From Chloroflexota bacterium (GTDB lineage Bacteria > Chloroflexota > Dehalococcoidia > SHYD01 > JACQUQ01), in the NCBI GenBank assembly GCA_016210175.1, contig JACQUQ010000079.1, forward strand, positions 1 to 36,171: a stretch of DNA of 36,171 nt, in the 5' to 3' direction. Below, in pieces: positions 8,203 to 36,171 of the stretch. Both the position numbers and the translations under genes were made by a program. Each line of letters begins with the position of its first letter. Positions within the stretch are counted from its first letter, which is position 1. The notes beneath the pieces are model-generated. The model was given only the letters and a program-made list of their open reading frames with translations, was not told the DNA's origin and did no database searches.

Positions 8203-8690
8203 CAGAAGACCCTCCGGAGCACGTCGGCGTACCGCTGCCAGGAGGGGGTCCGTCGTAGCTCCACGTCGCTGGCGTCAATGACGTGGATGTAGATGGTCCG
8301 GCCATCCGCCGAGGCGTCCAGCACCAGTTCGCCCGGGGTCAGGGTGATCCCGTGGGCGACCAGCGCGGCGGTGGCCTCCGCGACATCGCCCAGCGTCAGG
8401 CGGACGATGCCCGGCCGGATGGCAGGGTGCGGACGGAGGAGACGCCGGGCCAGGTCCAGATTCGCCAGGACGAGGCTGGCCGGAAGGAGCGCCAGCAGGT
8501 AGAGCGCCAGGAACGCGGTCCGTCGGGGAAGCTGCGACCACGGGACCGTCCGCCCGCGCCCGGCGCCCGTCAGCAGGACCAGGGACGCACCGAACAGCAG
8601 TCCCAGGAGGACCTGGCCCACGCTGAACTCCCCCACCATCAGACACCAGACCCCCGCCATGACCAGCGTCAACAGCACCGTCATCCTCAT
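8202..8690 (-). CDS. mnhE: Na+/H+ antiporter subunit E
   Basis: MRMTVLLTLVMAGVWCLMVGEFSVGQVLLGLLFG...TLTPGELVLDASADGRTIYIHVIDASD: MnhE; start trimmed from the longer ORF. Confidence 0.92.
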   Translation of the reverse strand: MRMTVLLTLVMAGVWCLMVGEFSVGQVLLGLLFGASLVLLTGAGRGRTVPWSQLPRRTAFLALYLLALLPASLVLANLDLARRLLRPHPAIRPGIVRLTLGDVAEATAALVAHGITLTPGELVLDASADGRTIYIHVIDASDVELRRTPSWQRYADVLRRVF

Positions 8691-10174: not shown

Positions 10175-10506
10175 GCTCGCCCCTCGGTGAAGTCGGTCAC
10201 GTCGATGGAGTTCCCGCGGGCCACCAGCCAGAAGGTCAGCGTCACCAGGAAGGCGGTGAAGCCGAAGGTAATGACGATGGCCGTGAGCACCAGCGCCTGG
10301 ACTAGGGGATCGGCCAGCGGCGCGGCGTCCCCGCCGACGAAGGGGGCACGGACTCCCCTGGTGCGGCTCACTGCGATGATGAGGAGGTTGGCCGCATTCC
10401 AGAAGAGGTACAGTCCGATGACCATGCGCACGGCGTTGCGCTGGAGGAGCTGGAGCACGGCCACGGCGACCAGCACGCCGATGGTCGCGGCCATGAGCAG
10501 GCTCAT
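10171..10506 (-). CDS. mnhC: Na+/H+ antiporter subunit C
   Basis: GVLVAVAVLQLLQRNAVRMVIGLYLFWNAANLLIIAVSRTRG...DPLVQALVLTAIVITFGFTAFLVTL: NuoK-like MnhC. Confidence 0.92.
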   Translation of the reverse strand: MSLLMAATIGVLVAVAVLQLLQRNAVRMVIGLYLFWNAANLLIIAVSRTRGVRAPFVGGDAAPLADPLVQALVLTAIVITFGFTAFLVTLTFWLVARGNSIDVTDFTEGRA

Positions 10507-10922
10507 GCAATGGCCCTCCCCAGGCTTTCGATAACGGTCATAGCGCCTCCCCCCACCACCAGGTAGATCCCGACGTCGAAGAGCAGCGCCCGTGTGAGCC
10601 TGACGACCCCCACCAGCGGGACGGTCATGTGGACCTCCAGGATGGCGAGCAGGGGTTCCCCGGTGACCACGGGGAGGAGAGCGGCGAGAAGCGCGATGGC
10701 GAGGCCCACCGGGGGCATGCGCTCGAAGCGGAAACGTCGCAGCGTTCGTCGCGCCTCATGATAGCCGAAGGCGATGTACTGGAGCGTCAGCCCCAGGGCC
10801 GACACCACCCCGGCGCTGAAGCCATCGCCCGGCCCCTGATCGCCGCCCACCAGGTAGGTCATGGAGGTCAGCAGGGCAATGAGCAGCGTTGCCCGCGTCA
10901 CCAACCGGATCAACGGTGTCAT
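10503..10922 (-). CDS. mnhB: Na+/H+ antiporter subunit B
   Basis: MTPLIRLVTRATLLIALLTSMTYLVGGDQGPGDGFSAGVVSALGLTLQYIAFGYHEARR: MnhB; start at 10922 overlaps the mnhA stop. Confidence 0.92.
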   Translation of the reverse strand: MTPLIRLVTRATLLIALLTSMTYLVGGDQGPGDGFSAGVVSALGLTLQYIAFGYHEARRTLRRFRFERMPPVGLAIALLAALLPVVTGEPLLAILEVHMTVPLVGVVRLTRALLFDVGIYLVVGGGAMTVIESLGRAIA

Positions 10923-15755: not shown

Positions 15756-18455
15756 ATGACGGCCACCTTCCAACTGCTCCCAGCCTGCTACGCTGAAGTA
15801 GCCGTCAACGCGCCGACGCCCCATCACCTCACGTTCACCTATGCCGTGCCGCCGGGGATGGCTGTGGCCGTGGGGCAGGCGGTCTGGGTACCCTTTGGCA
15901 CCCGCCTGGCCCAGGGGTTCATCTTTGCCCTCACGCCCACGCCCCGGGTGGAGGCCCCTCGGCCCCTGGCCGGCGCGGTGGCCGGGCAACCGTGCCTGGC
16001 CCCCTGGCAGGTGGACCTGGCAGGCTGGATCAGCCGCTACTACGGCTCCTCGCTGTTTGAGGCGGCCGCCCTCTTCATGCCCCCCGACTTCGAGCGGCGT
16101 GTCCTCACCCTGGTGCATCCCGTGCCGGCGACGTTCGGTCGGGTGGTGGGGACGTTGACGCCGCGCCAGCGCCGTATCCTGCGCTCTCTCGACCGCCATG
16201 GACCTACCGAGCTGGAGGACCTCAAGCGCCGGGTTGCCGACCGCCGCGCCGCCGAGGTGGTAGACCAATTGGTGCAGCAGGGGCTGGCCCGGAAGGAGCT
16301 GGTCGTGCAGCGCCCCCGGGTAGGCCCCAAGCACGCGCGCGTCCTGTGCCGTACCGAGTCGCCCGCACCGCCGGTCGTGCTGGACCGCAGCCCGCGCCAG
16401 GCTGCCTTGCTGTCGGCGCTGGAGGCGGCGGGCGGGCGGCTCACGCGGGCAGCCCTGCGTGAGGGCGGGTTCACGGCTGCGGTCAGCGCCGGGCTGGTGC
16501 GCAAAGGGCTGGTCCACTGGGAGGCCGTCCGGGAGGTCCGCGCGCCGTTGGTCCGGCCTCCAGGCCCAGCGGTCCCTGTCCCCACGCTGACCGCCGCCCA
16601 GGAACAGGCATGGGCCGCGCTGCGGCAGGCCCTGGACCAGCCCCCCGATGCTCGCGGGCCGCAGGTGTTCCTGCTCCACGGCGTCACCGGGAGCGGCAAG
16701 ACCGAGATCTACCTGCGCGCCCTGGCCCATGTCATCGCCCAGGGCCGGCGGGGCATCGTGCTGGTGCCGGAGATCGCCCTGACCCCGCAGACCGTCGAGC
16801 GCGTGGCGGCCCGCTTTCCCGGTCGGGTGGCCTTGCTCCATAGCGGCCTCTCCCTGGGCCAGCAGTTCGATGCCTGGTGGCGCATCCATGATGGCGAGTT
16901 CGATGTGGTGGTGGGCTCCCGCAGCGCGGTCTTCGCCCCGCAGGCCGATCTGGGGCTGATCGTCGTCGACGAAGAGCACGATGCCGCGTACAAGCAAACC
17001 GACCCGGCGCCCCGTTACCACGCCCGGCGCGTGGCCGAGGAAGTCGCACGCCGGACCGGCGCCGTGCTGGTGCTGGGTTCGGCAACCCCCGACCTGGGCA
17101 GCTACCTCCAGGCCCTGGCCGGACGCTTCCACGTGCTGGAACTCCCCGCGCGGGTATCTCCCCACCGCTCCCCCGGCCCCTCCCCGCTGCTGAGTTCCAG
17201 GGCGGACCGTTGGCACGGGGTGGCAGCGCAGGAGTGGAGCCGCTTCCCGTTCCCTCTCCCTCTGGGGGAGGGTGAGGGAGGTGCCGGGAAGAGCGCCCTC
17301 ACCCCGACCCTCTCCCAGGGGGAGAGGGAGCCACCACCTGCCTTCACCTCGCAGCTGGCCGCCCCGGAACTCCAGGTAGGGAAAGGGGGGCCGGGGGCTG
17401 AGGAGGGAGGCGCCTCAGCGCTGCGCGGCCTGCCTTCGGTGGAAATTGTGGACCTGCGGCGCGAGCTGCGGGAGGGCAACCGGAGTATCTTCAGCCGATC
17501 GCTGACGCTCCACCTGGCCGCGACCCTGGAGGCAGGTCACCAGGCCATCCTGTTCCTCAACCGGCGGGGCGCGGCCAGCTTCGTCCAGTGCCGGGACTGC
17601 GGCCATGCCATGACCTGCCGCCGCTGCGATGTGGCCCTGACCTATCACTCCGTCGGCGAGCGGCTGCTGTGCCACCAGTGCAGCGCCCAGGTTGCCGTGC
17701 CGGGCACCTGTCCGCACTGCGCCAGCCCACGTATCAAGTTCCTGGGCCTGGGGACCCAGCGGGTGGAGGAAGAGGTAGGGAAGCTCTTTCCGGCGGCGCG
17801 CGTGCTGCGCTGGGACCGGGATACCGCCCGCACCCGCAGCGCTCACGAAACGGCGCTGCGCCGGTTCCAGGACCACGAGGCGGATGTGCTGGTGGGGACG
17901 CAGATGATCGCGAAGGGGTTGGACCTGCCGCAGGTGACGCTGGTGGGGGTAGTGAACGCCGATATCACCCTCTACCTGCCGGACTTCCGGGCTGCGGAGC
18001 GCACCTTTCAACTGCTGACCCAGGTGGCGGGCCGGGCCGGGCGCGGCCCCTGGGCCGGGCAGGTCATCGTCCAGACCTACACCCCAGAGCACTACGCGCT
18101 GACGACCGCCGCCCGCCAGGATTACCGGGCCTTCGCCCAACAGGAGGCCGCCTACCGCCGCCGCCACGGCTATCCGCCCTTTGGGCGCATGGCCCGGCTG
18201 CTCTTTGCCCATCCGGGGGCAGCTCGCGCCCAGCACGAGGCCGAGGCCCTGGCCCGTCGTCTGCGGGAGGAGGCAGCGACGGCCGGCCTGGCCGAGGTGG
18301 CGGTGCTGGGTCCGGTGCCCGCCTATCCGCGGCGGGTGCGGGGGCGCTACCGCTGGCAGATCGTGCTCCTGGGGGGCGATCCCCATCCCCTGTTGGAGCG
18401 GATCGTCGTGCCCCGCGGCTGGCTGCTGGATGTGGACCCGGTGGGCTTGCTCTAA
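15756..18455 (+). CDS. priA: primosomal protein N' (PriA helicase) with an internal insertion
   Basis: FLLHGVTGSGKTEIYLRAL (Walker A), VDEEHDAAYKQ, zinc-binding CRDCGHAMTCRRCDVALTYHSVGERLLCHQCSAQVAVPGTCPHC; GTG at 15750 also possible. Confidence 0.95.
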   Translation: MTATFQLLPACYAEVAVNAPTPHHLTFTYAVPPGMAVAVGQAVWVPFGTRLAQGFIFALTPTPRVEAPRPLAGAVAGQPCLAPWQVDLAGWISRYYGSSLFEAAALFMPPDFERRVLTLVHPVPATFGRVVGTLTPRQRRILRSLDRHGPTELEDLKRRVADRRAAEVVDQLVQQGLARKELVVQRPRVGPKHARVLCRTESPAPPVVLDRSPRQAALLSALEAAGGRLTRAALREGGFTAAVSAGLVRKGLVHWEAVREVRAPLVRPPGPAVPVPTLTAAQEQAWAALRQALDQPPDARGPQVFLLHGVTGSGKTEIYLRALAHVIAQGRRGIVLVPEIALTPQTVERVAARFPGRVALLHSGLSLGQQFDAWWRIHDGEFDVVVGSRSAVFAPQADLGLIVVDEEHDAAYKQTDPAPRYHARRVAEEVARRTGAVLVLGSATPDLGSYLQALAGRFHVLELPARVSPHRSPGPSPLLSSRADRWHGVAAQEWSRFPFPLPLGEGEGGAGKSALTPTLSQGEREPPPAFTSQLAAPELQVGKGGPGAEEGGASALRGLPSVEIVDLRRELREGNRSIFSRSLTLHLAATLEAGHQAILFLNRRGAASFVQCRDCGHAMTCRRCDVALTYHSVGERLLCHQCSAQVAVPGTCPHCASPRIKFLGLGTQRVEEEVGKLFPAARVLRWDRDTARTRSAHETALRRFQDHEADVLVGTQMIAKGLDLPQVTLVGVVNADITLYLPDFRAAERTFQLLTQVAGRAGRGPWAGQVIVQTYTPEHYALTTAARQDYRAFAQQEAAYRRRHGYPPFGRMARLLFAHPGAARAQHEAEALARRLREEAATAGLAEVAVLGPVPAYPRRVRGRYRWQIVLLGGDPHPLLERIVVPRGWLLDVDPVGLL
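17170..17397. repeat. palindromic/MITE-like element inserted in frame within priA
   Basis: Bounded by 11-bp perfect IRs CCCCCGGCCCC (17170-17180) / GGGGCCGGGGG (17387-17397); inner dyads TCCCTCTCCC (17251-17260)/GGGAGAGGGA (17320-17329) and GGTGAGGG (17271-17278)/CCCTCACC (17296-17303); encodes ...PLPLGEGEGGAGKSALTPTLSQGERE... Confidence 0.8.
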
Positions 18456-22986: not shown

Positions 22987-24675
22987 ATGAATAGAGTGGA
23001 TAACACCTCTTCTCGGAGCAAAGTACTGCTGCGCTTGCGTTGGCCCATCGTGTTGGTGGTGGCGCTGCTCTTGGCGGCCTGCGGCCCCGCGACGTCCCCT
23101 CCCGCAGAGCAGCCAGGGGGACAGCCGGCTGCGCCGGGGCAGCCGCAGCCAGATACGCAGCCGAAGGCTGCACAGCCGAAGTCGGGCGGGACCCTGGTGC
23201 TGGTGAACAGCCTTGGCGATCCTCCCAGCTTCGACGTGCATCAAGAGACGACCATCTCCGTCATCGGCCCGATTATGCCCAACTATGATGGCCTGCTCAT
23301 GTTCGACCCGCTCGATCCGAGCAAGATCGTCGGGGACCTGGCAGAGCGCTGGGAGCAGAGCCAGGACGGCCGCCTCTATACCTTCGCCCTCCGCAAGGGA
23401 GTGAAGTTCCACAATGGGACCCCCTTTACCGCAGCGGATGCGAAATATAGCCTGGAGCGGATGATCTCCCCGCCGAAGGGGATGGTCAGTCCGCGCCGGG
23501 CGGCATTGGGAGCGATTGAGCGTATCGAAGTCCCCGACGCTACCACCCTGAACATCTTCCTCAAACAGCCGAGCCCCTCCTTGCTCGCCATCCTCGCGCA
23601 GCAGCGCGGCATGGCCATGTACAGCAAGGCCTTCCTGGAGGAGAAGGGCCAGGAGGTCATGAAAAAGGAGATCATGGGCACTGGCCCCTATAAGCTCAAG
23701 GACTATGTGCGGGGGACCAGCATCGAGCTGGTGAAGAACCCGAACTACTGGATGCCGGGGCGCCCCTACCTGGACGGGCTCAAGTACTTCATTCTCCCGG
23801 ACCCCAACACCCGCCTGGCCGCCTTCCGCACCGGGCAGTTGCACATCCATGGCCTGAGCGTCTCCGACGCACAAGCGCTGGAGAAGGAACTGGCGGGCAA
23901 GATCACGATCCAGCGGCAGCAAGGCATCAGCCCCCAAACCTTCCTGTTGAACACCACCCGCGAGCCCTTCGACGATATCCGGGTGCGCCAGGCCATCAGC
24001 ATGGCCATTGACCGTGAGGCGGGCATCAAAGTCCTGGCCCAGGGCGATGGCGATGTCAGCGGCCACATGCCGGCCACCGGCCTCTGGAGCCTGCCGCGGG
24101 AAGAGCTGGCGAAGCTGCCCGGCTACGCGACCGACAAAGCCGCCGAGATCGCCAGGGCCAAACAACTGCTGGCAGATGCGGGCTATCCCAATGGCTTTTC
24201 GGTCACGCTGGCCACCCGCAATGCCTCCAGCTACGTTGATCTGAGCACCTTCGTCAAGGACCAGCTTGCCAAGATCGGCGTCGAAGGGAATATCACGCCC
24301 TTCGAGTCGGCGGCGATCTTCGACCTCTTCAACAAGAAAGACTACGCCGCGTCGCCGTGGAGCTACGGCTTCTCCCTGGACGACCCGGACAGCATTTTCT
24401 CGGAATTCTACGTGTGCGGTTCGCCCAGAAACTACACTGGGCTCTGCGACGACGAGATGCAGCGCCTGTTCGAGCAGCAGTCGCAGACCCTCGATCCCGT
24501 CCAGCGCAAGAAGCTGGTCCAGGAGTTGGACCGCAAGGCCATCACCCAGTCGGCCATGATCGTCCTGTACTTTGGCCGGGTGCGGACCGGGGTCTGGAAC
24601 CAGGTGAAAGACTATCGTGTCTTCCCGAGCTCCTACAATAACGTGAAAATGCGAGATGTCTGGCTCGACCAGTAG
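22987..24675 (+). CDS. ABC transporter substrate-binding lipoprotein, family 5 (copy 1)
   Basis: Lipobox LLLAACG; LAERWEQSQDGRLYTFALRKGVKFHNGTPFTAADAKYSLERM; LNTTREPFDDIRVRQAISMAIDRE. Confidence 0.93.
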   Translation: MNRVDNTSSRSKVLLRLRWPIVLVVALLLAACGPATSPPAEQPGGQPAAPGQPQPDTQPKAAQPKSGGTLVLVNSLGDPPSFDVHQETTISVIGPIMPNYDGLLMFDPLDPSKIVGDLAERWEQSQDGRLYTFALRKGVKFHNGTPFTAADAKYSLERMISPPKGMVSPRRAALGAIERIEVPDATTLNIFLKQPSPSLLAILAQQRGMAMYSKAFLEEKGQEVMKKEIMGTGPYKLKDYVRGTSIELVKNPNYWMPGRPYLDGLKYFILPDPNTRLAAFRTGQLHIHGLSVSDAQALEKELAGKITIQRQQGISPQTFLLNTTREPFDDIRVRQAISMAIDREAGIKVLAQGDGDVSGHMPATGLWSLPREELAKLPGYATDKAAEIARAKQLLADAGYPNGFSVTLATRNASSYVDLSTFVKDQLAKIGVEGNITPFESAAIFDLFNKKDYAASPWSYGFSLDDPDSIFSEFYVCGSPRNYTGLCDDEMQRLFEQQSQTLDPVQRKKLVQELDRKAITQSAMIVLYFGRVRTGVWNQVKDYRVFPSSYNNVKMRDVWLDQ

Positions 24676-24679
24676 CCAG

Positions 24680-24698
24680 AGCGCCGCCGTGCGGCGCT
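24680..24698 (+). other. intercistronic hairpin after SBP copy 1
   Basis: AGCGCCGC-CGT-GCGGCGCT, perfect 8-bp arms, starting 4 nt after the stop codon; no T-tract. Confidence 0.65.
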
Positions 24699-24723
24699 TC
24701 ACGCCTGCCCAGGGAGAACGCCA

Positions 24724-25917
24724 ATGGTCATGGCCTTAGAAGGGATACGTATCCTGGATTTTTCGCATACGATTGGCGCGTACTGCACCCGTCTGTTGGC
24801 CGACCTGGGGGCTGACGTGCTCAAAGTGGAGCAGTATCCCCGGCGCTTTGCGGGTGAGGTCAGTGAGGAAGAGGAAATCCGGAGCGCCGCCTTCAATGCG
24901 TCGGGCCGGAACAAGCGCAGCATCGCGCTGGACCTCAAGGTGCCGGAAGCGCGGGAGATCGTCTATCGCCTGGCGCGGGAAACCGACGTGGTGATGGAAG
25001 ATTTCCGCCCCGGCGTCACGGCGCGGCTGGGGGTGGACTACCCCACCCTCGCCGCGGTGAACCCCCGCATCGTCTACTGCTCCATCTCCGGGTACGGGCA
25101 GAGCGGCCCCTATGCCCAGGTCCCCGGCCACGATCCCAACTACCTGGGGTTTGCCGGGGTCCTGGAGACGATGGGCGTGCCCGATGGCCCCTACTGCTTG
25201 CCGGGCGTGCTGGTCGCTGACTATGCGGGCGGCAGCATGCCGGCAGCCATTGGCATCCTCACGGCGCTCCTGGCCAGGGAAAAGACGGGGCAGGGCCAGC
25301 ACATCGACATCGCCATGGCGGATGGGGTGATCGCCCTGGTGGCCGCCAGCCACGGCAGCTACTTCGCCACCGGCCTCGCCCCCAAGCGGGGAGAGCGTCC
25401 TGCCCACGTCTACGAGACGAAAGACGGCAAGCGCCTGGTCGTCGCGCCCACGGAGCCCTGGTTCTGGGAGCGGCTGTGCCGGGCGCTGGGGCTGGAGCAG
25501 TACATCTCCTACCACCACGATGCGCAGGCCCGCACGCCGGAGCACCAGTACAGCGACGAAGGGCGGCGCCGGCGCGAGGAGGTGATCGCTGCCTTCACCG
25601 CGGTCTTCAAGACCAGGACGCGGGATGAGTGGCTGCGGCTGCTCTGGGACATCGATACCTGTGCCGCCCCGGTGTACACCTTCGAAGAGGTGTTCTCCGA
25701 CCCCCAGGTGCTGCACCGGCAGATGGTGGTGGACCTGGACCATCCCCAGGTGGGGAACGTGCGTCAGGTGGGGATCCACATCAAGCTCTCCGAGACGCCG
25801 GGGCAGGTGCGCAGCTTTGCCCCACGCTTCGGTGAGCACACTGAGGCAGTCCTCAACACCCTCGGCTACTCCCCGGAGGCCGTGCAGCGCCTCCGGCACA
25901 GCGGGGCTATCCCCTAG
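24724..25917 (+). CDS. CaiB/BaiF family III CoA-transferase (copy 1)
   Basis: GIRILDFSHTIGAYCTRLLADLGADVLKVEQ...SGRNKRSIALDLKVPEAREIVYRLARETDVVMEDFRPGV...VADYAGGSMPAAIGILTALLAREKTGQGQHIDIAMAD. Confidence 0.95.
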   Translation: MVMALEGIRILDFSHTIGAYCTRLLADLGADVLKVEQYPRRFAGEVSEEEEIRSAAFNASGRNKRSIALDLKVPEAREIVYRLARETDVVMEDFRPGVTARLGVDYPTLAAVNPRIVYCSISGYGQSGPYAQVPGHDPNYLGFAGVLETMGVPDGPYCLPGVLVADYAGGSMPAAIGILTALLAREKTGQGQHIDIAMADGVIALVAASHGSYFATGLAPKRGERPAHVYETKDGKRLVVAPTEPWFWERLCRALGLEQYISYHHDAQARTPEHQYSDEGRRRREEVIAAFTAVFKTRTRDEWLRLLWDIDTCAAPVYTFEEVFSDPQVLHRQMVVDLDHPQVGNVRQVGIHIKLSETPGQVRSFAPRFGEHTEAVLNTLGYSPEAVQRLRHSGAIP

Positions 25918-25997
25918 CCCCAAGGATCGTGGTGACTTCGGACACTCTGGGATCCGGGAGTTCGTCCCATCGTCCCATAGGAAGAAGGAGACCCACG

Positions 25998-27671
25998 ATG
26001 CAGATGCGGCAGCGCTTATCGCTTCTTGGTCTATTCTCCGCTTTCCTCTTGATCGCGAGCGCGTGTACTGCCCCCACCAGCCCGACCGGGGAAGGGCAAC
26101 CGGCCGCCCCGGACCAACCGAAGCCGGCCGCCCCGGATCAACCGAAGCCGGCCGCCAAGACGGAGCCCAAATACGGCGGCGTGCTCCATACGCAAAAGCC
26201 GGAGGACCCGCCCAGCTACAATCTGTACCGCGAGACCACGGTCAACACCAATAACACCATGAGCAGCGCCTACGACCAGTTGGTCCGCTTTGACCGGCTC
26301 CAGCCCGATAAGATTGTCCCGGAGCTGGCGGAGCGGTGGGAGGTCAGCCCCGACGGCAAGACCTTCACCTTCTCGCTGGTTAAGGGCGTGAAGTTCCACA
26401 ATGGGAATCCGCTGACCGCGGCCGACGTCAAGTTCACCATGGAGAGTTGGGTGGTCTCGCCCCTGCCGAAGGGAGAGCGAAACCCGCGCCTGGGAGCCTA
26501 TACCGCCATCGAGCGGGTCGAGACGCCCGACGACTTTACCGTGAAGCTCCACTTGAAGTATCCCAACCCGTCCCTGCTCGATAACCTGGCCCAGGGCTGG
26601 AACCCCATCTACGACAGGGAATTCATCGAGCAGAACGGCGGCACGGAAGTGATGCAGAAGCAGGCGATGGGGACCGGTCCCTACAAGCTCAAGGAGCACC
26701 AGCGCGGCGTGAGCGTGGAGATGGCCAAGAACCCAGACTACTGGGTGAAAGGCCGCCCCTATCTGAACGGGCTGAAGTTCTTTGTCATCCGGGACCCCAA
26801 TACCTACCGGGCGGCCGTCCGCACCGCGCAGCTCCACCTTGGGGGTGGGGATAAGGAATACCGGAGCGAGCTTGCCAAGGAGATCGCCGAGGGGAAATAC
26901 ATCGTCAAGCGAGTGGGCAGCTACTCCATGCAGGTGCTGGGCCTGAATACCACGCGCCCGCCGCTGGACGACCCGCGGGTGCGGCAGGCCATCAGCCTGG
27001 GGATCGACCGCAAAGAGTTCATCCGGCTCTATTACGAAGGGGAAGCGGATATCGGGGGCTACCTGGCCCCGTCGGGCAAGTGGAAGCTGCCCGATGAGGA
27101 GCTGCTGAAGCTCCCCGGCTACGGCACGGATAGGGCCGCCAACCAGGCCAAGGCCAAAGAGCTCCTGGCCCAGGCGGGCTTCCCCAGCGGCTTCAAGGCC
27201 CGCCTGGTGACCCGCAGCACCCAGGGCTACGTGGACCTGGCGGTGGTGGTCCAGGGGTTGCTCCAGAAGATCGGCATTGACGCCGAAGTGGCGCCCCAGG
27301 AGGCGGCCATGGCCTTTGAGACCCGGCAGAAGGGCGACTTCGACATGCTGCCCTGGACCCTGGTGGGCAGCCTGGACGACCCGGACCACGTCTACGGCCA
27401 GTGGTATATCTGCAATGCCGGGGCCAACTTCTCCCGGCTGTGCGACAAAGACCTGGATGCCCTCTTCGAGAAGCAGTCCCAGACCCTGGACCCCAAGGAG
27501 CGCCAGAAGGTGGTCTGGGAGATGGAGAAGAAGGCCGTGTCCAATGCGGGCTTCGTCATGTTGAGCTGGGGCTGGCAGCAGGCCGGGTACTGGGCCTTTG
27601 TCAAGAACTACGAGCCGCACCCCAGCATCTACAACAACTGGCAGATGCGGGACGTGTGGCTGGACCAGTAG
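25998..27671 (+). CDS. ABC transporter substrate-binding lipoprotein, family 5 (copy 2)
   Basis: Lipobox LIASAC; LAERWEVSPDGKTFTFSLVKGVKFHNGNPLTAADVKFTMESW; LNTTRPPLDDPRVRQAISLGIDRK; shares C-terminus MRDVWLDQ with copy 1. Confidence 0.94.
   Translation: MQMRQRLSLLGLFSAFLLIASACTAPTSPTGEGQPAAPDQPKPAAPDQPKPAAKTEPKYGGVLHTQKPEDPPSYNLYRETTVNTNNTMSSAYDQLVRFDRLQPDKIVPELAERWEVSPDGKTFTFSLVKGVKFHNGNPLTAADVKFTMESWVVSPLPKGERNPRLGAYTAIERVETPDDFTVKLHLKYPNPSLLDNLAQGWNPIYDREFIEQNGGTEVMQKQAMGTGPYKLKEHQRGVSVEMAKNPDYWVKGRPYLNGLKFFVIRDPNTYRAAVRTAQLHLGGGDKEYRSELAKEIAEGKYIVKRVGSYSMQVLGLNTTRPPLDDPRVRQAISLGIDRKEFIRLYYEGEADIGGYLAPSGKWKLPDEELLKLPGYGTDRAANQAKAKELLAQAGFPSGFKARLVTRSTQGYVDLAVVVQGLLQKIGIDAEVAPQEAAMAFETRQKGDFDMLPWTLVGSLDDPDHVYGQWYICNAGANFSRLCDKDLDALFEKQSQTLDPKERQKVVWEMEKKAVSNAGFVMLSWGWQQAGYWAFVKNYEPHPSIYNNWQMRDVWLDQ
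26100..26156 (+). repeat. 24-nt tandem repeat (2.4 copies) in SBP copy 2 linker
   Basis: CCGGCCGCCCCGGACCAACCGAAG / CCGGCCGCCCCGGATCAACCGAAG / CCGGCCGCC, encoding (AAPDQPKP)n. Confidence 0.9.
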
Positions 27672-27681
27672 CGCGCTCCCG

Positions 27682-27705
27682 GCGGCACGCGGTCCTGCGT
27701 GCCGC
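27682..27705 (+). other. intercistronic hairpin after SBP copy 2
   Basis: GCGGCACGC-GGTCCT-GCGTGCCGC, perfect 9-bp arms, ~10 nt after the stop codon; no T-tract. Confidence 0.65.
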
Positions 27706-27762
27706 GCCCCCTCCCGGCGGGGTGTGGCGGACCGGTCGGACCGGAGGGCGAGGAGAAGAGAG

Positions 27763-28941
27763 ATGGCGCTTCCTGCACTCGCTGGCGTCGTGGTCCTGGA
27801 CCTGACCACGTATTATGCCGGGCCGTATTGCACCAAGCTCTTGGCCGCCCTGGGGGCAGAGGTCATCAAGATCGAGCGTCCCGGCCTTGGAGATGGGGCC
27901 CGCCGCCTGGGACCGTTCCCCGGCGACCTCCCGCATCCGGAGAAGAGCGGGACCTTCCTCTACCTGAACACCGGCAAGCAGGGCATCACCCTCAATCTGA
28001 AGAGCGCCACGGGCCAGGAACTGTTCAAGCAGTTGGTCCGAGAGGCGACCATCGTGGTGGAGAACTTTGCCCCCCGCGTGCTGCCGGGCCTGGGCCTGGG
28101 GTACGAGGTCCTGGAGCAGATCAACTCGGCGCTGGTGCTGACCTCCATCTCGAATTTCGGGCAGACCGGACCGTATCGGGACTACCGGGGCGCCGAGATT
28201 ACCTTCATGGCCCTGGGGGGCCTCATGTACCAGACCGGCGAGCCGGACCGCGAGCCGCTCAAGCTGCCCGGCGCCGTCGCCCAGTACGCTGCCGGCTTCG
28301 CGGCCTTCAGCGCCACCCTGGGCGCGCTGTACTACGCCGAGGCCACTGGCACGGGCCAGCACGTGGATGTCTCGCTCATGGAGACCATCGCCTCCAGCCA
28401 TATCCAGGGCCTGTCCGAGTATGACTATGTGGGCACCATTCGCGGCCGCGGCTACGCCCAGGCGCACTACCCTTGCCAGGACGGGTTCGTGGCCTTCTCC
28501 GTGCAACCCCACCTGTGGCCGCGCTTGTGCCAGCTTATCGGCCGGCCCGAACTGGTGGAGGATCCCCGCTTCCGCACCTGGCAGGCCCGCCGGCAGCACG
28601 CCGACGAGCTGGATATGTACATCCTCCCCTGGGTGGTCGAGCGGACCCGGGAGCAGGTCTACCACGAGGCCCAGGCCGCCGGGGTGCCCTGTAGCTTCAT
28701 GGCCACCATGGCCGACCTGGAGGCGTCGCCGCAGTACCGGGCGCGCGGCTTCTTCTCAGCGATCGAGCACCCCGTCGCGGGGTCGTTCCCGTATCCCGGC
28801 ATCCCCTTCCAACTGGGCGAAGCGCCCTATAACCTGGGGCGAGCGCCGCTGCTGGGCGAGCACAATGCAGCAGTCTACGGAGAGCGCTTGGGGTATAGCC
28901 GCGAGGCGCTGGCGCGGCTCCAGGCCCAAGGGGTCGTCTAG
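27763..28941 (+). CDS. CaiB/BaiF family III CoA-transferase homologue (copy 2, catalytic Asp apparently replaced)
   Basis: GVVVLDLTTYYAGPYCTKLLAALGAEVIKIERPG...HPEKSGTFLYLNTGKQGITLNLKSATGQELFKQLVREATIVVENFAPRV...AVAQYAAGFAAFSATLGALYYAEATGTGQHVDVSLMET. Confidence 0.95.
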   Translation: MALPALAGVVVLDLTTYYAGPYCTKLLAALGAEVIKIERPGLGDGARRLGPFPGDLPHPEKSGTFLYLNTGKQGITLNLKSATGQELFKQLVREATIVVENFAPRVLPGLGLGYEVLEQINSALVLTSISNFGQTGPYRDYRGAEITFMALGGLMYQTGEPDREPLKLPGAVAQYAAGFAAFSATLGALYYAEATGTGQHVDVSLMETIASSHIQGLSEYDYVGTIRGRGYAQAHYPCQDGFVAFSVQPHLWPRLCQLIGRPELVEDPRFRTWQARRQHADELDMYILPWVVERTREQVYHEAQAAGVPCSFMATMADLEASPQYRARGFFSAIEHPVAGSFPYPGIPFQLGEAPYNLGRAPLLGEHNAAVYGERLGYSREALARLQAQGVV

Positions 28942-28980
28942 CGCATGTTGGCACATTGGAGATCTGCCGGGCGTGCATGG

Positions 28981-29071
28981 TGTCATACTGAGGCCCGCCG
29001 GCCGAAGCATCCGTACTCCTGGTGCCCGGTTGCCAGGGAGCTCCGGATTCTTCGCTTCGCTCAGAATGACA
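28981..29071. repeat. ~91-bp MITE-like element with imperfect terminal inverted repeats
   Basis: TGTCATACTGAG (28981-28992) / CTCAGAATGACA (29060-29071), 1 mismatch; contains GGATTCTTCGCTTCGCTCAGAATGAC, a common dispersed-repeat motif. Confidence 0.65.
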
Positions 29072-29141
29072 TACAGAGCGCATCTTTTCACACCATAGAT
29101 GATGTGCAAACCGTGACGCCGTCCAGCGTAGACCAAAGGAG

Positions 29142-30416
29142 ATGACCATGCCGCCGCTCCCGTTGGCTGGAGTGCGAATCCTCGATCTGACGATGTTCAT
29201 GGCTGGCCCGGTTGGCACCAAGCTCCTGGCGGATATGGGCGCGGAGGTCATCAAGGTCGAGTCGCCGGGCCACCCCGACCCCATCCGCATCCAGGCGCGC
29301 GGGGTGTATCCCCAGGGGGAGCCGGGCGAGCGCCCGTGGAACCGCTCGGGCATGATCAATGAGCGTGCCCGGAACAAGCTGGGCATCACCCTCGACCTGG
29401 CGTGTCCTGAAGGCAAGGCGGTCTTCCTGCGCCTGGTGGCGTGCAGCGACGTGGTCATGGAAAACTACCGGGCCGATGTCATGGAGAACCTGGGCCTCGG
29501 CTATGCCGCGCTGCGCCAGGCGAACCCCGGCATCATCCTGGTCTCCATCGCCAGCCAGGGCGTGGTCGGCCCGGAAGCCCTGTACCGCTCCTACGGCAAC
29601 AACCTGGAAGACCTCGCCGGCATGACCCTGCTGAAGGGCTACGAAGACGAGGAGCACCCGTACCTGGTCAGCGGCGCCTACCCGGACCCGACGAGCGGCT
29701 TCCTGGGGGCCGGCGTGGTGGTCGCCGCCCTGCGCTATCGCCGGCTCAACGGGGTGGGGATGCACGTGGACTTTTCCCAGCGGGAAATGGCGACGGCCAT
29801 GGTGGGCGACCTCTTCATGGACTACGCCATGAACCGGCGCCAGCCGCCCCGGTGGGGCAACGGCCACCCGTGGATGGCGCCCCACGGGTGCTATCCCTGC
29901 CAGGGCCGGGACAAATGGGTGACCATCGCGGTGGCAACGGACGCGCAGTGGCAACGGCTCTGTGCCGCCATCGGCAGGCCGGACCTGGCGCGGGATGAGC
30001 GGTTCGCCACGGGCGAGCGCCGCTGGCAGAACCGGAAAGCGCTGGATGCCGTGCTCACGGAGTGGACCCTGCAACGCGAGCATGTGGAGGCGATGGCGGC
30101 GCTCCAGCAGGCCGGCCTCGCGGCGGGCGCCGTCTATAACGTCGCGGAACTCTTCGCGGACCCCCACCTGGAGCACCGGGGCTTTTTCGAGGTGACCGAG
30201 GACCCGGACGCAGGGCTGCACCGGTACCAGGGGCGCCCGTGGAAGCTTTCCAAGACCCCCCTGGGCACCCGGACACCGGCGCCGCTCTTTGGCCAGCACA
30301 ATCAGCAGGTCCTGGGCGGCCTCGTCGGGTTGGACGAACCGGAATTGCAGGAACTGGAGGTGAAGGGCGTTATCGGGACCATCCCCCAACCGCGTATCCC
30401 TGTGGAGATGACATAA
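29142..30416 (+). CDS. CaiB/BaiF family III CoA-transferase (copy 3)
   Basis: GVRILDLTMFMAGPVGTKLLADMGAEVIKVESPGHPD...NKLGITLDLACPEGKAVFLRLVACSDVVMENYRADVMENLGLGY...AYPDPTSGFLGAGVVVAALRYRRLNGVGMHVDFSQRE; start 29142 or 29148. Confidence 0.94.
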   Translation: MTMPPLPLAGVRILDLTMFMAGPVGTKLLADMGAEVIKVESPGHPDPIRIQARGVYPQGEPGERPWNRSGMINERARNKLGITLDLACPEGKAVFLRLVACSDVVMENYRADVMENLGLGYAALRQANPGIILVSIASQGVVGPEALYRSYGNNLEDLAGMTLLKGYEDEEHPYLVSGAYPDPTSGFLGAGVVVAALRYRRLNGVGMHVDFSQREMATAMVGDLFMDYAMNRRQPPRWGNGHPWMAPHGCYPCQGRDKWVTIAVATDAQWQRLCAAIGRPDLARDERFATGERRWQNRKALDAVLTEWTLQREHVEAMAALQQAGLAAGAVYNVAELFADPHLEHRGFFEVTEDPDAGLHRYQGRPWKLSKTPLGTRTPAPLFGQHNQQVLGGLVGLDEPELQELEVKGVIGTIPQPRIPVEMT

Positions 30417-30503
30417 GAACCCACTGCCGGTGGACCATCCGCGCGCAGGTTCCTGGAACGCATGCTGTGTGCCACTGATCATTAAAGAGAGGGAAAGAAT
30501 ACG

Positions 30504-31469
30504 ATGAAGGCAACGTATATCGCGGCCCAGGGCGGCACTGACCAGTTTGTTTACGGTGAGATCCCCGAGCCAGCTATCGCGCCCGATGAGATCCTGGTGC
30601 GGGTGCGGGCCTGCGGGGTGAACCGGCTGGATGTCTTCGGGCGAGAGGGCTCGCACGGCGTGCGCATGCAGAGTCCCCAGCACGTGCTGGGCCTCGATCT
30701 GGCGGGTGAGGTCGAAGACGTCGGCAGCTACGTAGCCCACACCAAGCGGTTCAAGAAGGGCGACCGCGTCCTGGGCGTGGGCAGCGGGGGCACCTACGCC
30801 GAGTACGCGCGGGCCCCAATGGACCGTGTCCACCTGATGCCGGACTGGATGTCCTTTGAGGAGGCTGCGGCCATCCCCACGGTCTACGCGGCAGCCTGGC
30901 GGGCCATCGTGGTGCGGGCGCGTATCACCTTCGGCGAGGATGCGCTGGTGATGGCCGCGGGCAGCGGTGTGGGGACGGCAGCGATCCAGATCGCGAAGTA
31001 TGCCGGCTGCCGGGTGCTGACCACAGCCAGCAGCGACGCCAAGCTGGAGAAGGCCAGGGCCCTCGGGGCCGACATTGGCATCAACTATAAAGAACACCCC
31101 GAGTTCAGCAAGCAGGTGCTGGAGCACACTGGGGGCGCCGGGGTCGATCTCATCTACGAGCACATCGGGCAGAGCGTGTTCGACCAGTGTTACCGGAGCC
31201 TGAAGCGGGGGACCGGGCGCCTGGTGACCAATGGCGTGACGTCGGGGCACCTGACGCAACTCCATCTCGGCCAGCTGTGGACGCGCGAGGTCAGCCTTAT
31301 CGGCTCCACTATGCACCCGGAACTGGACCTCCCGGCCATCATGAAGGGGGTGGCAAGGAAGGCCCTGCGGGGCGTGGTGGACCGCGTCTTCCCCCTGAAG
31401 GATGCGGCGGAGGCCCACCGTGTCCTGGAGTCCAACGACTTCTTCGGAAAGCTGGTCCTGGTACCCTAA
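30504..31469 (+). CDS. MDR-superfamily oxidoreductase (quinone oxidoreductase/enoyl reductase-like)
   Basis: ILVRVRACGVNRLDVFGREG...HVLGLDLAGEVEDVG...AGSGVGTAAIQIAKYAGCRVLTTASSDAKLEKARALGAD. Confidence 0.92.
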   Translation: MKATYIAAQGGTDQFVYGEIPEPAIAPDEILVRVRACGVNRLDVFGREGSHGVRMQSPQHVLGLDLAGEVEDVGSYVAHTKRFKKGDRVLGVGSGGTYAEYARAPMDRVHLMPDWMSFEEAAAIPTVYAAAWRAIVVRARITFGEDALVMAAGSGVGTAAIQIAKYAGCRVLTTASSDAKLEKARALGADIGINYKEHPEFSKQVLEHTGGAGVDLIYEHIGQSVFDQCYRSLKRGTGRLVTNGVTSGHLTQLHLGQLWTREVSLIGSTMHPELDLPAIMKGVARKALRGVVDRVFPLKDAAEAHRVLESNDFFGKLVLVP

Positions 31470-31631
31470 GGCCACAAGCCGGCCGCCTGCGGTCGTGGCC
31501 TTCCCGCCGGGAGGCCGGTCGCTCCCCGGAAGCGGTGCGCCGCAGGCGCCAGGGAAGGCGTGGAGGCTGGCCGAGAAGCCGGCCACTGGCCCCCCGGAGG
31601 GGACTACGACGTTCAGGAAAGGGGGAACGTC

Positions 31632-32402
31632 ATGCCGGGACCCTTCCAGTGGATTATCTATGAGCAGAAGGGCCATATCGGGCACATCCGGTTGAACCGG
31701 CCCGAGAAGCTCAACTCGTACCACAACGGTGTGTTGTATGAGATGCTGGAGTGCTGGACCGAGATCCGCGATAACGACGATATCTGGGTGGCCGTGCTCT
31801 CGGCGGAGGGCCGCGGCTTCTGCGCGGGCCATGACATTAGCGGCGAGCGGGACCCGCGGCCGGGCCCCGAACCCCCCTCGATCCACTACGGCACCTTCGA
31901 CCTGTACAAGCCCATCGTCACGGCCTGCCAGGGCTACGCCCTGGGGGGTGGCGCCAGCCTGGCCCTGGGCTGTGACATCCGCATCGTCTCCGAAGACTTT
32001 CAGTTGGGCTACCCGCAGCCGAGCTACGGCGCGATGTCCCTGGGCGGCCCCCAGCGCCTCCCCCGCATGACCCACTGGGGCAAGGCGATGGAGTGGCTGC
32101 TGACCGCCTCGCGCATCCCGGCGCAGGAATGCCTGCACTGGGGCCTGGTCAACAAGGTCGTCCCCAATGGCCAGCAACTCGATGCGGCCTTTGAGTTTGT
32201 CGAGGAGAAGATCCTCCCCAACGCCCCCATTCCCATCCGCCTGTTCAAGGAGGCCGCCGTCCGGGGCAGCCGCCAGCCGTACCTGGCGGAAGCGATCCAG
32301 GTTGGCATGCTCGTGGCCGCCAAGAACCGGGGCACCGCCGACGCCGAGGAAGGGATACGCGCTTTCCGGGAACGGCGCAAGGCTGCCTGGACCGGCCGCT
32401 AG
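31632..32402 (+). CDS. crotonase-fold enoyl-CoA hydratase/isomerase family protein (copy 1)
   Basis: GHIRLNRPEKLNSYHNGVLYEML...AEGRGFCAGHDISGERD...GYALGGGASLALGCDIRIVSEDFQLGYPQPSYGAMSLGGPQRLPR...GLVNKVVP. Confidence 0.93.
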   Translation: MPGPFQWIIYEQKGHIGHIRLNRPEKLNSYHNGVLYEMLECWTEIRDNDDIWVAVLSAEGRGFCAGHDISGERDPRPGPEPPSIHYGTFDLYKPIVTACQGYALGGGASLALGCDIRIVSEDFQLGYPQPSYGAMSLGGPQRLPRMTHWGKAMEWLLTASRIPAQECLHWGLVNKVVPNGQQLDAAFEFVEEKILPNAPIPIRLFKEAAVRGSRQPYLAEAIQVGMLVAAKNRGTADAEEGIRAFRERRKAAWTGR

Positions 32403-32546
32403 TGCCTCATCAGGCATGAACTGATGGGGAAGACTGCCGCCGTGAACAGCGGGCCCGCCCTTCAGGGCGGTGGGATGGCACCCACCCCAGGAGCATTGAC
32501 AGAGCGCTAGACCGCCGGTGAGCAGCACGGTCCCCCCCGCCCCCCT

Positions 32547-32590
32547 CCCGCTCCTGCACATGGGGGAGCGGGGACACGGGGGTGAGGGAG
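32547..32590. repeat. intergenic palindromic repeat-like element
   Basis: CCCGCTCC (32547-32554) / GGAGCGGG (32565-32572) followed by GACACGGGGGTGAGGGAG; G/C-run composition resembles the priA insert. Confidence 0.5.
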
Positions 32591-32651
32591 CGGCGGCCTG
32601 CCATCTCCCCGCGAGGGGCCTGCATCAGCAGAGGAAGAGAGAGGGAGACGT

Positions 32652-33446
32652 ATGATTACTGGGAGGGATGTCCTGCTCACGGAAAAGCGCGATCATATCT
32701 ACATCATGACGATCAACCGTGAAGAGCGCCGCAATGCCATGAGCTCGGAGTTCATGGAGCGGTGGGCCGAAGAGTGGGAGCGCTTCGATGAAGATGACGA
32801 CCTCTGGGTGGCCATCTTCACGGGGACGGGCGACGTCGCGTTCTCCGCAGGCCACGATATGAAAGAGGACATCGAGGGCGACGTGCGAGGGGGCGCGTAT
32901 CGGAGCCGGAAGGCCCCTCCCCGGCGGCGCCCGCACCCCGACGTGCTGACGTGGAAGCCCACCATCGCCGCCGTCAACGGCTACTGCCTGGCCGGGGGCT
33001 GGATGCTGGCCCAGTCCTGCGATGTCCGTATCGCGGCGGAGCACGCGAGCTTCGGCATCCCGGAGGTGAAGTGGAACCTGCCGGCGGGCTTTGCCGCCCA
33101 GCCGGAGTACCTCGTCTCCCTGGGGGTGGTCTGCGAGATGTTGCTGTGGGGCCGCAGCATCTCGGCCCAGCGGACCTATGAGATCGGCTTTGTGAACAAG
33201 GTCGTGCCGAAAGCAAAGCTGATGGACGAGGCGCTGGAGTGGGCCGAGTACATGTGTACCCTGGGCCAGGATGCGGTCCGCGCCCACAAGCAGATGATCT
33301 ACCGGGGCCGCAATATGTCGGTGGCCGAGTTGAACGCGCTGGGCCGCGACCTCTTCTACTGGTATCCCGCGAAGAAGGGTGTGGTGTGGGACGCCGCGGA
33401 AGGCCCTCGCGCCTTCGCCGAGCGGCGGGCTCCCAAGTACCAGTAA
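32652..33446 (+). CDS. crotonase-fold enoyl-CoA hydratase/isomerase family protein (copy 2)
   Basis: HIYIMTINREERRNAMSSEFMERWAEEW...VAFSAGHDMKEDIEGD...GYCLAGGWMLAQSCDVRIAAEHASFGIPEVKWNLPAGFAA...GFVNKVVP. Confidence 0.93.
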   Translation: MITGRDVLLTEKRDHIYIMTINREERRNAMSSEFMERWAEEWERFDEDDDLWVAIFTGTGDVAFSAGHDMKEDIEGDVRGGAYRSRKAPPRRRPHPDVLTWKPTIAAVNGYCLAGGWMLAQSCDVRIAAEHASFGIPEVKWNLPAGFAAQPEYLVSLGVVCEMLLWGRSISAQRTYEIGFVNKVVPKAKLMDEALEWAEYMCTLGQDAVRAHKQMIYRGRNMSVAELNALGRDLFYWYPAKKGVVWDAAEGPRAFAERRAPKYQ

Positions 33447-33579
33447 GCTGGCGGACGGCGCGCCGCTGGGCCGCAGGACCGAGCACCGCGTCCCTGATGG
33501 AGTGTGGCGCGCTGAAGTGTGGAGCGATGCGCGCGCTTCCCGGTGGAGGTCACCCGCGGTCCCGCGCAGGGAGGATCCC

Positions 33580-35082
33580 GTGCAGAAGGCCGAGCCCCGG
33601 AGCCACTGGGACGTCGAGACGGATGTGGTCGTCGTCGGCTATGGCTTCGCGGGTGGGGTGGCGGCGGTGGCAGCGCATGACCGGGGCGCCCAGGTGCTCG
33701 TGCTGGAGAAGATGCCGTACCCTGGAGGTATCTCCATGCTCTCCGCCGGGAGCGCCGTCATCACCGACGACGCGGAACAGGCCTTCCAGTACCTCCAGCG
33801 CACCAACGCCGGCACGACCCCAGACCCCGTGCTCCGGGCCTTCGCCCAGGAGATGGTGGGGCTCCCGGCCTGCGTTGAGGAGTTGGCCGCGGTCAGCCAC
33901 GCCCAGGTAGAGGTGCAACACGGTCGGGGCGGTCCCTATCCCTTCCCCGGCACCAGGAGCCTGGGCTATGTCCGTATCGCTGCGGTCCCTGAGTTCACCG
34001 CTTTCCCCTGGGGCCAGGGCTTACGGGGCGGGGCGCGCCTCTATAAAGTCGTGGCGGACAACGTCTCGGTCCGGGGGGTGCGGGTGTGGCTGGACACGGC
34101 CGCTGAGGAACTACTGTGTGCCCCGGACGGCACGGTGGTTGGGCTCAAGGCCAGGCAGCAGGGCCGGGCGGTGGCTATTCGGGCGCGACGGGGCGTGGTG
34201 TTGGCCTGTGGTGGGTTCGAGCACTCCGAGGCGCTCAAGCGGCAGTACTTTCCGGCCCAGCCCGTCTACGGCGTTGCCGCCCTGGGCAATATGGGCGACG
34301 GTATCCTCATGGCCCAGAAGGCGGGCGCCGCCCTCTGGCACATGTGGCACTACCACGGCTCCTATGGCTTCAAGTTCCCCGACTTCCCGACCGCTTTCCG
34401 GACTGCCGTCATCGGCCCCAGGGCCACGGGCCAGCCGGTCCCGTGGATCGCCGTGAACAAGCTCGGGAAACGGTTCATGGACGAGTTTCCCATTTACCTT
34501 CAGGACACCGGCGCGCGACCGATGGAGCACTACGATACCCGAATCCAGGACTTTCCCGCCATCCCCGCCTACCTGCTGTTCGACGAGGCCGGACGCAGGA
34601 TGGGGCCGATCGGTCTGGGCGCCAGTAACGAGCCGCAATATATCTACGAGTGGAGCCAGGACAACCTGCGGGAAGTGCAACGGGGCTGGATTGCCTGCGC
34701 CGATACCTGGGAGCAACTCGCCCACCAGGGAGGGCTCAGCCCCACCATGGTCCAGCAGGCCGTAGCGCGCTGGAACTCCCAGTGCCTGGCGGGAGGTGAT
34801 CCCGACTTCGGCCGGCTGCCGGAGACGATGATGCCGCTCCAGGAACCTCCGTATTACGCGGTGCAGATCTGGCCGGTAGTCTCCAACACGCAGGGAGGCC
34901 CGGTGCATGACGAGCGGCAGCGGATCTTGGACTCCTTCGGACAACCCATCCCGCGCCTCTACAGCGCAGGAGAGCTGGGTTCCATCTTCGGCCACCTGTA
35001 CCTCGGGGGCGGGAATATCGCCGAGTGCTTCATCGGCGGCCGGATCGCCGGAGCCGGTGCTGCACAGGAAGAACCGGGCTAA
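33580..35082 (+). CDS. FAD-dependent oxidoreductase (fumarate reductase flavoprotein / KstD-like family)
   Basis: DVVVVGYGFAGGVAAVAAHDRGAQVLVLEKMPYPGGISMLSAG...GVVLACGGFEHSE...LYSAGELGSIFGHLYLGGGNIAECFIGGRIAG; GTG start preceded by GGGAGG. Confidence 0.92.
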   Translation: MQKAEPRSHWDVETDVVVVGYGFAGGVAAVAAHDRGAQVLVLEKMPYPGGISMLSAGSAVITDDAEQAFQYLQRTNAGTTPDPVLRAFAQEMVGLPACVEELAAVSHAQVEVQHGRGGPYPFPGTRSLGYVRIAAVPEFTAFPWGQGLRGGARLYKVVADNVSVRGVRVWLDTAAEELLCAPDGTVVGLKARQQGRAVAIRARRGVVLACGGFEHSEALKRQYFPAQPVYGVAALGNMGDGILMAQKAGAALWHMWHYHGSYGFKFPDFPTAFRTAVIGPRATGQPVPWIAVNKLGKRFMDEFPIYLQDTGARPMEHYDTRIQDFPAIPAYLLFDEAGRRMGPIGLGASNEPQYIYEWSQDNLREVQRGWIACADTWEQLAHQGGLSPTMVQQAVARWNSQCLAGGDPDFGRLPETMMPLQEPPYYAVQIWPVVSNTQGGPVHDERQRILDSFGQPIPRLYSAGELGSIFGHLYLGGGNIAECFIGGRIAGAGAAQEEPG

Positions 35083-35158
35083 GGCGTGCCGAACCGTTCA
35101 CCGAGTTCGTCCCGGCACCAGGCTGGGTCGGACCTTTCGCAGGACAAGGGGGAAGGCG

Positions 35159-36171
35159 ATGGTAGCGTTACCGGGCTTGGCCCGCACTCTGAAGGTTGCG
35201 TTGCTCCTGGGTGCGTCCGTGCTGCTCGCCGCCTGTACGGGCGCTGCTCCTACCACGGAGGCACCGACAACGGAGGCGCCGAAGACCGAGGCGTCGCCGA
35301 CGGCGAAGGACGAGGGCAAGCCCAAGTACGGGGGCATCCTGACCGCGGTGGAGACATTGACCCTCGACCAGGTCCACATCGACGCGCACCTGAGCCGGGG
35401 CAGCCCGGCCATTAGCGTACATGGCAACATCCACGGCTACATCCTGGCCGAGGACATGCAGAACCGCGGCACCATCACCGGCGACCTCGCCACCTCGTGG
35501 CAGTCCAGCCCCGATGGGCTGACCTGGACCTTCACGATCCGGGACGGCTTGCAGACCCACAAGGGCAAGCCCTTCAGCGCGGAGGACATCGCCTACAACA
35601 TCAACCGCACGATCCAGCGGCCCAACAAGCTCAACTTGTTCCGGACCGGCTGCATGAAGACCCTGGCGAAAGAGGCCAAGGCCCCCGACAAGACCACGGT
35701 GGTGGTCACGCTCCTGGACCGCTCGCCGGCCTTCCTCGCCTGCGTGTCCGACCCCCACATGTTCATGCAGCCCAAGTACATCCTGGAGGACATTGACGGG
35801 CCGGGGAAGGGGCGTCCCATGCGCCCGGAGGAGATCGACGGGGTAGGCCCCTTCCAGTTTGTGGCGACGGCAGAGCGAAGTCACTGGGAACTCAAGCGCT
35901 CGGCCAGCTTTTTCAAGCAGGGGCTGCCGTACCTGGACGGCCTGCGGTTCGTTGACCTGCCCGACGCCTCGTCCAAGATAGCGGCCTTCCGCACCCAGCG
36001 CATCGACATGTTCCAGAAGTTCGCCACCACGCCGCGCCCGTCGGAGGCCAAGGCGCTGAAAGCGGAGTTTGGGGACAAGATCACGCTCCAGCCTGGGGTG
36101 GCGCCCTCGGGCCCGCCTTTCCAGTTGAACTGGAAGCGGCCGCCGCTGGACGACATTCGGGTGCGCGAGGC
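35159..36171 (+). CDS. ABC transporter substrate-binding lipoprotein, family 5 (copy 3), 3' end outside the window
   Basis: Translated by hand: MVALPGLARTLKVALLLGASVLLAACTGAAPTTEAPTTEAPKTEASPTAKDEGKPKYGGILTAVE...LATSWQSSPDGLTWTFTIRDGLQTHKGKPFSAEDIAYNINRTIQ...; open to the window end, absent from the ORF track. Confidence 0.92.
   Translation, partial: MVALPGLARTLKVALLLGASVLLAACTGAAPTTEAPTTEAPKTEASPTAKDEGKPKYGGILTAVETLTLDQVHIDAHLSRGSPAISVHGNIHGYILAEDMQNRGTITGDLATSWQSSPDGLTWTFTIRDGLQTHKGKPFSAEDIAYNINRTIQRPNKLNLFRTGCMKTLAKEAKAPDKTTVVVTLLDRSPAFLACVSDPHMFMQPKYILEDIDGPGKGRPMRPEEIDGVGPFQFVATAERSHWELKRSASFFKQGLPYLDGLRFVDLPDASSKIAAFRTQRIDMFQKFATTPRPSEAKALKAEFGDKITLQPGVAPSGPPFQLNWKRPPLDDIRVRE

Follow-up and report, generated by a model that had tools for sequence, protein, structure and literature searches.

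The ten co-directional genes that close the Chloroflexota contig analyzed here form a real cluster, probably for uptake plus CoA activation, built from known protein families, with two of the originally predicted assignments corrected. Where the original prediction counted three CoA-transferases, we found that CoAT1 carries the active-site triad of a racemase and that CoAT2 and CoAT3 look like two subunits of one BbsEF-type enzyme. This subunit pairing is the strongest result of our study. What is new is the combination of a paired BbsEF-type CoA-transferase and a racemase-type protein with family 5 binding lipoproteins.

Layout of the ten-gene cluster

The window, meaning the whole stretch of 36,171 nucleotides that we analyzed, corresponds to contig C28 in full; the contig belongs to a metagenome-assembled genome (MAG) of 274 contigs and 3.47 Mb (91% complete), called the source genome below. 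As predicted, all ten genes lie on the + strand in the order SBP1-CoAT1-SBP2-CoAT2-CoAT3-MDR-ECH1-ECH2-FAD2-SBP3, and they have strong Pfam matches. The starts of SBP2 and CoAT2 were revised, most likely to 25998 and 27763, respectively.

SBP1, 22987..24675, +: family 5 solute-binding lipoprotein (SBP_bac_5, PF00496, 4e-84)
CoAT1, 24724..25917, +: CoA_transf_3 fold (PF02515, 4e-105), probably of the alpha-methylacyl-CoA racemase type
SBP2, 25998..27671, +: family 5 solute-binding lipoprotein (SBP_bac_5)
CoAT2, 27763..28941, +: CoA_transf_3, BbsE-like subunit B of a probable paired family III CoA-transferase
CoAT3, 29142..30416, +: CoA_transf_3, BbsF-like subunit A, probably of the same enzyme as CoAT2
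MDR, 30504..31469, +: medium-chain reductase/dehydrogenase (ADH_N/ADH_zinc_N), PIG3/quinone-oxidoreductase-like
ECH1, 31632..32402, +: crotonase fold (ECH_1) with both catalytic Glu residues replaced
ECH2, 32652..33446, +: crotonase fold (ECH_1), EchA19-like
FAD2, 33580..35082, +: FAD_binding_2 protein of the flavocytochrome c/3-ketosteroid dehydrogenase type
SBP3, 35219..36169, +: family 5 solute-binding lipoprotein (SBP_bac_5, PF00496), cut by the contig end

Intergenic gaps within the cluster are 48-249 bp. No terminator-like site was found between cluster genes on the + strand, where the sole such site falls inside CoAT3, and + strand sites in the cluster are rarer than in shuffled sequence. 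The proximity of binding-protein and CoA-transferase genes exceeds chance in the source genome, since 5 of its 18 SBP_bac_5 genes have a CoA_transf_3 gene no more than 500 bp away, compared with 0.8% expected (P ∼3e-7 per gene and ∼1e-5 per contig, under an approximate model that treats gene positions as uniform). The window holds no permease, ATPase, thiolase, 3-hydroxyacyl-CoA dehydrogenase, or acyl-CoA dehydrogenase gene; because the contig ends at 36171, cutting SBP3, the absence of the first four may be an edge effect.

Upstream of the cluster lie trmD-, priA-, and recJ-like genes, together with a set of Mrp-type antiporter genes. These housekeeping and membrane genes indicate that the contig is ordinary chromosomal sequence. 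The nearest named relatives of SBP1 come from Chloroflexota MAGs, one of them titled Dehalococcoidia, which is the probable class of the source genome. The Na+/H+ antiporter set (MnhE, MnhG, and Mrp/complex I-like subunits; 7597-13279, − strand) is flanked by an MFS transporter and housekeeping genes. Separately, the PriA-like gene (15756-18455, + strand) contains a 28-nt inverted repeat (86% complementary, 17251-17329), which is in frame and encodes the low-complexity insert PLPLGEGEGGAGKSALTPTLSQGERE; it resembles a palindromic repeat element tolerated in coding sequence.

A probable two-subunit CoA-transferase and a putative racemase

Family III proteins gathered from the source genome fell, in a tree, into two sister clades, A and B, with support of 100/99 each. 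Within that genome the catalytic Asp is present in 12 of 12 clade A members and in none of the 14 clade B members; CoAT3 belongs to clade A and has the Asp, and CoAT2 belongs to clade B and has Gln in its place. Genes of the two clades adjoin at 11 loci of the source genome, and all loci examined gave 59 distinct adjacent pairs (50 B-then-A and 9 A-then-B). The same was seen across the class, where nearly all sampled CoAT3 orthologues have a same-strand B gene alongside. Of the exceptions, one has SBP and crotonase genes separating A from B, and the other lies at the edge of its contig. Class-wide, the catalytic Asp is found in all 31 readable clade A rows and in 7 of 32 clade B rows. Furthermore, locus L213 encodes a natural B-A fusion protein, and C266 encodes a double-domain family III protein. 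The L213 record, in which the fused protein occurs with SBPs, is titled Dehalococcoides mccartyi MoH-23oct19-41; we take the locus to look unlike that organism, and the record may be a mislabelled MAG.

Comparison with solved structures agreed with this division, clearly so for CoAT3. CoAT3 scored 237 bits against chain B of benzylsuccinate CoA-transferase (9fn0_B) and 73 bits against chain A, while CoAT2 aligned with 9fn0_A over its full length at 193 bits and with YfdW at 197 bits. Like CoAT2, 9fn0_A lacks the catalytic Asp. BbsEF (PDB 9fn0, 9fol, and 9fun) shares with CoAT2/CoAT3 two adjacent family III genes and a catalytic Asp in one subunit that is absent from the other. It differs in that overall similarity is low, no benzylsuccinate synthase context was seen here, and the source genome is multi-copy with its 11 adjacent pairs. 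Since the pair resembles the BbsE and BbsF subunits, CoAT2 and CoAT3 probably form one heteromeric BbsEF-type enzyme, a complex predicted from sequence.

CoAT1 keeps the His126/Asp156/Glu241 triad of the Mycobacterium tuberculosis alpha-methylacyl-CoA racemase MCR in an alignment, and its best solved match over the active-site region is the racemase FAR. Full-length scores marginally favour CaiB/FRC structures (174 and 167 bits) over MCR (162 bits), hence the assignment is based on residues and not on overall similarity. With MCR and FAR (PDB 1x74 and 2g04) CoAT1 also shares the D[FY][GA]GGSM loop, although it is longer (397 aa versus 360). The full triad occurs in no member of clade A or B, but in others of the remaining family III group, among them the C143 gene that adjoins SBP and DppB/DppC genes and, in the L187 operon (described below), the final family III gene. 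These residues suggest that CoAT1 is probably an alpha-methylacyl-CoA racemase-type enzyme. Enzymes of this type take 2-methyl-branched acids and bile-acid intermediates as their substrates (PMC12246613, PMC12682127).

In ECH1 the catalytic Glu pair is replaced by Ser and Gln (alignment with 5zai), and ECH2 has Met/Glu, keeping only the second catalytic Glu (alignment with 4f47). As neither has both catalytic glutamates, we rejected standard enoyl-CoA hydratase as an assignment for either. MDR is nearest to the PIG3 quinone-oxidoreductase subfamily (TIGR02824, 3e-75, below the model cut-off), and the best NCBIfam models for FAD2, 3-ketosteroid-delta-1-dehydrogenase and flavocytochrome c, match it with scores far below all cut-offs.

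Binding proteins, sibling clusters, and conservation

The translations of all three SBPs contain a lipobox (LLAAC in SBP1 and SBP3, IASAC in SBP2), and SBP2 is ∼50% identical to SBP1. By family they are Dpp/Nik/Gsi-type; all three match PF00496, and none has the TctC fold (PF03401). In Escherichia coli DppA, Asp408 anchors the peptide amine. Alignment with DppA places Ser at this position in SBP1 and SBP2 and Gly in the SBP of a sibling cluster, C106; the comparison covers these three proteins, as SBP3 ends before the site.

Four sibling arrangements were found in the source genome, where A and B denote the CoA-transferase subunits:

C106: SBP-B-A-SDR-DppB-DppC-acyl-CoA dehydrogenase
C175: SBP-SBP-DppB-DppC-B-A-crotonase-SBP
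C143: racemase-like-SBP-DppB-DppC
C54: SBP-B-A

At C90, a thiolase domain protein is encoded beside another CoA-transferase pair. Two cases from outside the source genome argue for a functional link between SBPs and CoA-transferases:

L187, 5045-17488 of JACQYK010000005, in a MAG titled Deltaproteobacteria: B-A-SBP-DppB-DppC-DppD-DppF-crotonase-racemase-like-AMP ligase, all co-directional
L151, 6355-16998, genome G008, C235: IclR regulator, then SBP-thiolase-ChsH2-like-luciferase-like-B-SBP-crotonase-A-DppB

The L187 operon combines a complete Dpp-type importer with a paired CoA-transferase outside Chloroflexota. In its lineage, an SBP match at E <= 1e-70 was found in only 2 of 148 genomes, its own included, and this near-absence of close relatives would fit horizontal transfer. 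At L151 the ChsH2-like protein is an OB protein and the luciferase-like one a monooxygenase piece; the locus joins binding proteins to a BbsAB/ChsH2-like thiolase set. Genes were called with a caller trained on homologue matches. The L187 operon, along with siblings that add DppB/DppC and an acyl-CoA dehydrogenase or crotonase, supports the original view of the cluster as uptake plus CoA activation and not standard beta-oxidation.

The predicted dedicated binding protein for each substrate, with no transporter in view, fared less well. Permeases of the right family occur in the sibling clusters, and, set against 18 SBP_bac_5 and 22 BPD_transp_1 matches, the source genome has only 2 oligo_HPY ATPases, both encoded outside the ten-gene contig. 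Together, the sibling permeases and the ratio of ATPases to SBPs suggest that the SBPs share permeases and ATPases encoded elsewhere.

With a limit of 1.5 kb, an SBP gene accompanies just 2 of 29 CoAT3 orthologues across the class and none of 29 other CoAT1 orthologues. Furthermore, SBP-CoAT proximity in the genomes G003 (2/24) and G030 (19/163) is about that expected from the numbers of both families. These results point to a local arrangement and not a conserved operon, and on them we rejected SBP-CaiB alternation as a class-wide rule. The original prediction had named a search for this alternation in other genomes as a check, and a lack of conserved gene order in relatives as grounds for refutation. 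That order is largely not conserved; the families and the CoAT2-CoAT3 pairing are. Family III CoA-transferases number 32 in the source genome, 66 in G003, 67 in G030, and 72 in G031. G030 (JACPQD, a 5.0 Mb Chloroflexota MAG) gave 368 first-look SBP_bac_5 candidates, and all 105 of those scored passed. Direct inspection of its loci (L153-L162 and the JACPQD loci among L179-L238) revealed 168 distinct SBP frames, 143 of them over 450 aa, with only four permeases alongside.

Proposed function and family expansion

We favour, as reasonably probable, a reading in which the source genome has several uptake-plus-CoA-activation modules for non-peptide carboxylates, this cluster among them. The lipoprotein SBPs would capture a non-peptide compound bearing a carboxylate outside the cell and deliver it to a Dpp-type permease/ATPase that many SBPs share and whose genes lie elsewhere. 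The CoAT2-CoAT3 heteromer would then transfer CoA to the acid from a donor, for example succinyl-CoA, and CoAT1 would epimerize the carbon next to the thioester. FAD2, MDR, and the two atypical crotonases may carry out redox, isomerization, or ring steps on the thioester, with the remaining pathway steps supplied from other loci. The most likely substrate class would be a branched or alicyclic acid. Counting against this reading are the YfdW score of CoAT2, the CaiB/FRC scores of CoAT1, the Asp kept in the B subunits of some relatives, the unconserved gene order, the chance-level SBP-CoAT proximity in G003 and G030, and the lack of a permease or ATPase gene in the window.

The two families could also have come together by duplication and drift, in a loose neighbourhood with no shared pathway or substrate. 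In favour of this, both are greatly expanded (CoA_transf_3 at 32-72 per genome in four genomes, SBP_bac_5 with as many as 368 first-look candidates), G003 and G030 show about the proximity expected, and gene order is not conserved. Yet adjacency in the source genome is far above chance, co-directional, and tight, it is repeated with permeases at C106, C175, and C143, and a comparable operon occurs in the MAG titled Deltaproteobacteria; we regard drift as rather unlikely. It is a good deal less plausible that an ordinary peptide or nickel ABC importer has come by chance to lie beside a fatty-acid or branched-chain-acid degradation operon. The family type of the SBPs and the truncated contig would allow this, but the SBPs are interleaved with the CoA enzymes, the peptide-amine Asp of DppA is absent, and the crotonases are without the hydratase Glu pair.

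The remaining alternative, to which we give the least credence, is a cluster for breaking down a steroid- or terpenoid-like compound, in which the racemase, the KstD-like flavoprotein, and the CoA-transferase resemble enzymes of side-chain and ring steps in sterol or cyclic-acid degradation. The best FAD2 models, the 2-methyl-branched and bile-acid substrates of alpha-methylacyl-CoA racemases (PMC12246613, PMC12682127), and the related G008 operon with its thiolase and ChsH2-like protein are consistent with this. Against it, the FAD2 scores fall far short of every cut-off, the flavoprotein family is broad, and no ring-cleaving oxygenase or hydrolase is in view.

Returning to uptake and activation of non-peptide carboxylates, we tentatively suggest that part of the class practises a plug-in form of acid scavenging, in which dozens to hundreds of family 5 lipoproteins might feed a few shared Dpp-type permeases and ATPases and be genetically coupled to expanded two-subunit BbsEF-type CoA-transferases, the Asp-less subunit choosing the substrate. 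If true, conversion to CoA thioesters would hold novel acids inside the cell as soon as they enter. In many uncultured Chloroflexota, dozens of genes bear the annotations "CaiB/BaiF CoA-transferase" and "peptide ABC transporter SBP". Our analysis points to two-subunit enzymes for much of the first group and to racemases for some of its members, and in Chloroflexota the second group probably does not bind peptides. This would correct routine annotation and provides concrete transporter-enzyme pairs with which to test what recalcitrant organic acids feed these bacteria.

Comparable expansions have been described elsewhere. In the part of the SAR202 Chloroflexi account that we draw on (PMC5395668), the same phylum likewise has many family III CoA-transferases, and the CaiB/BaiF paralogues are taken to activate many different acids that are then oxidized; it does not describe A/B subunit pairs, members of the racemase type, or linkage to binding proteins. 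For transport, the orphan Bug/TctC SBPs of tripartite tricarboxylate transporters show a similar lineage-specific excess over membrane components, with 434 copies in Rhodoplanes (PMC5994714) and Bordetella as a further case. By contrast, the binding proteins here belong to family 5 and are of the ABC type (PF00496), and the permeases and ATPases are Dpp-type and oligo_HPY, respectively. Closer by family is the large Opp/Dpp expansion of Devosia (PMC6981132), which is presented, in the portion of that account considered here, as peptide transporters whose permease and ATPase genes lie in the same operons and, unlike our case, with no mention of CoA enzymes. Our literature search met no earlier description of a combined SBP_bac_5 and CaiB expansion in Dehalococcoidia, which is not proof of absence. 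Lastly, G506, G238, and other class members gave first-look family III counts of up to 141-147 in genomes of 2.8-2.9 Mb, exceeding the count in the source genome.
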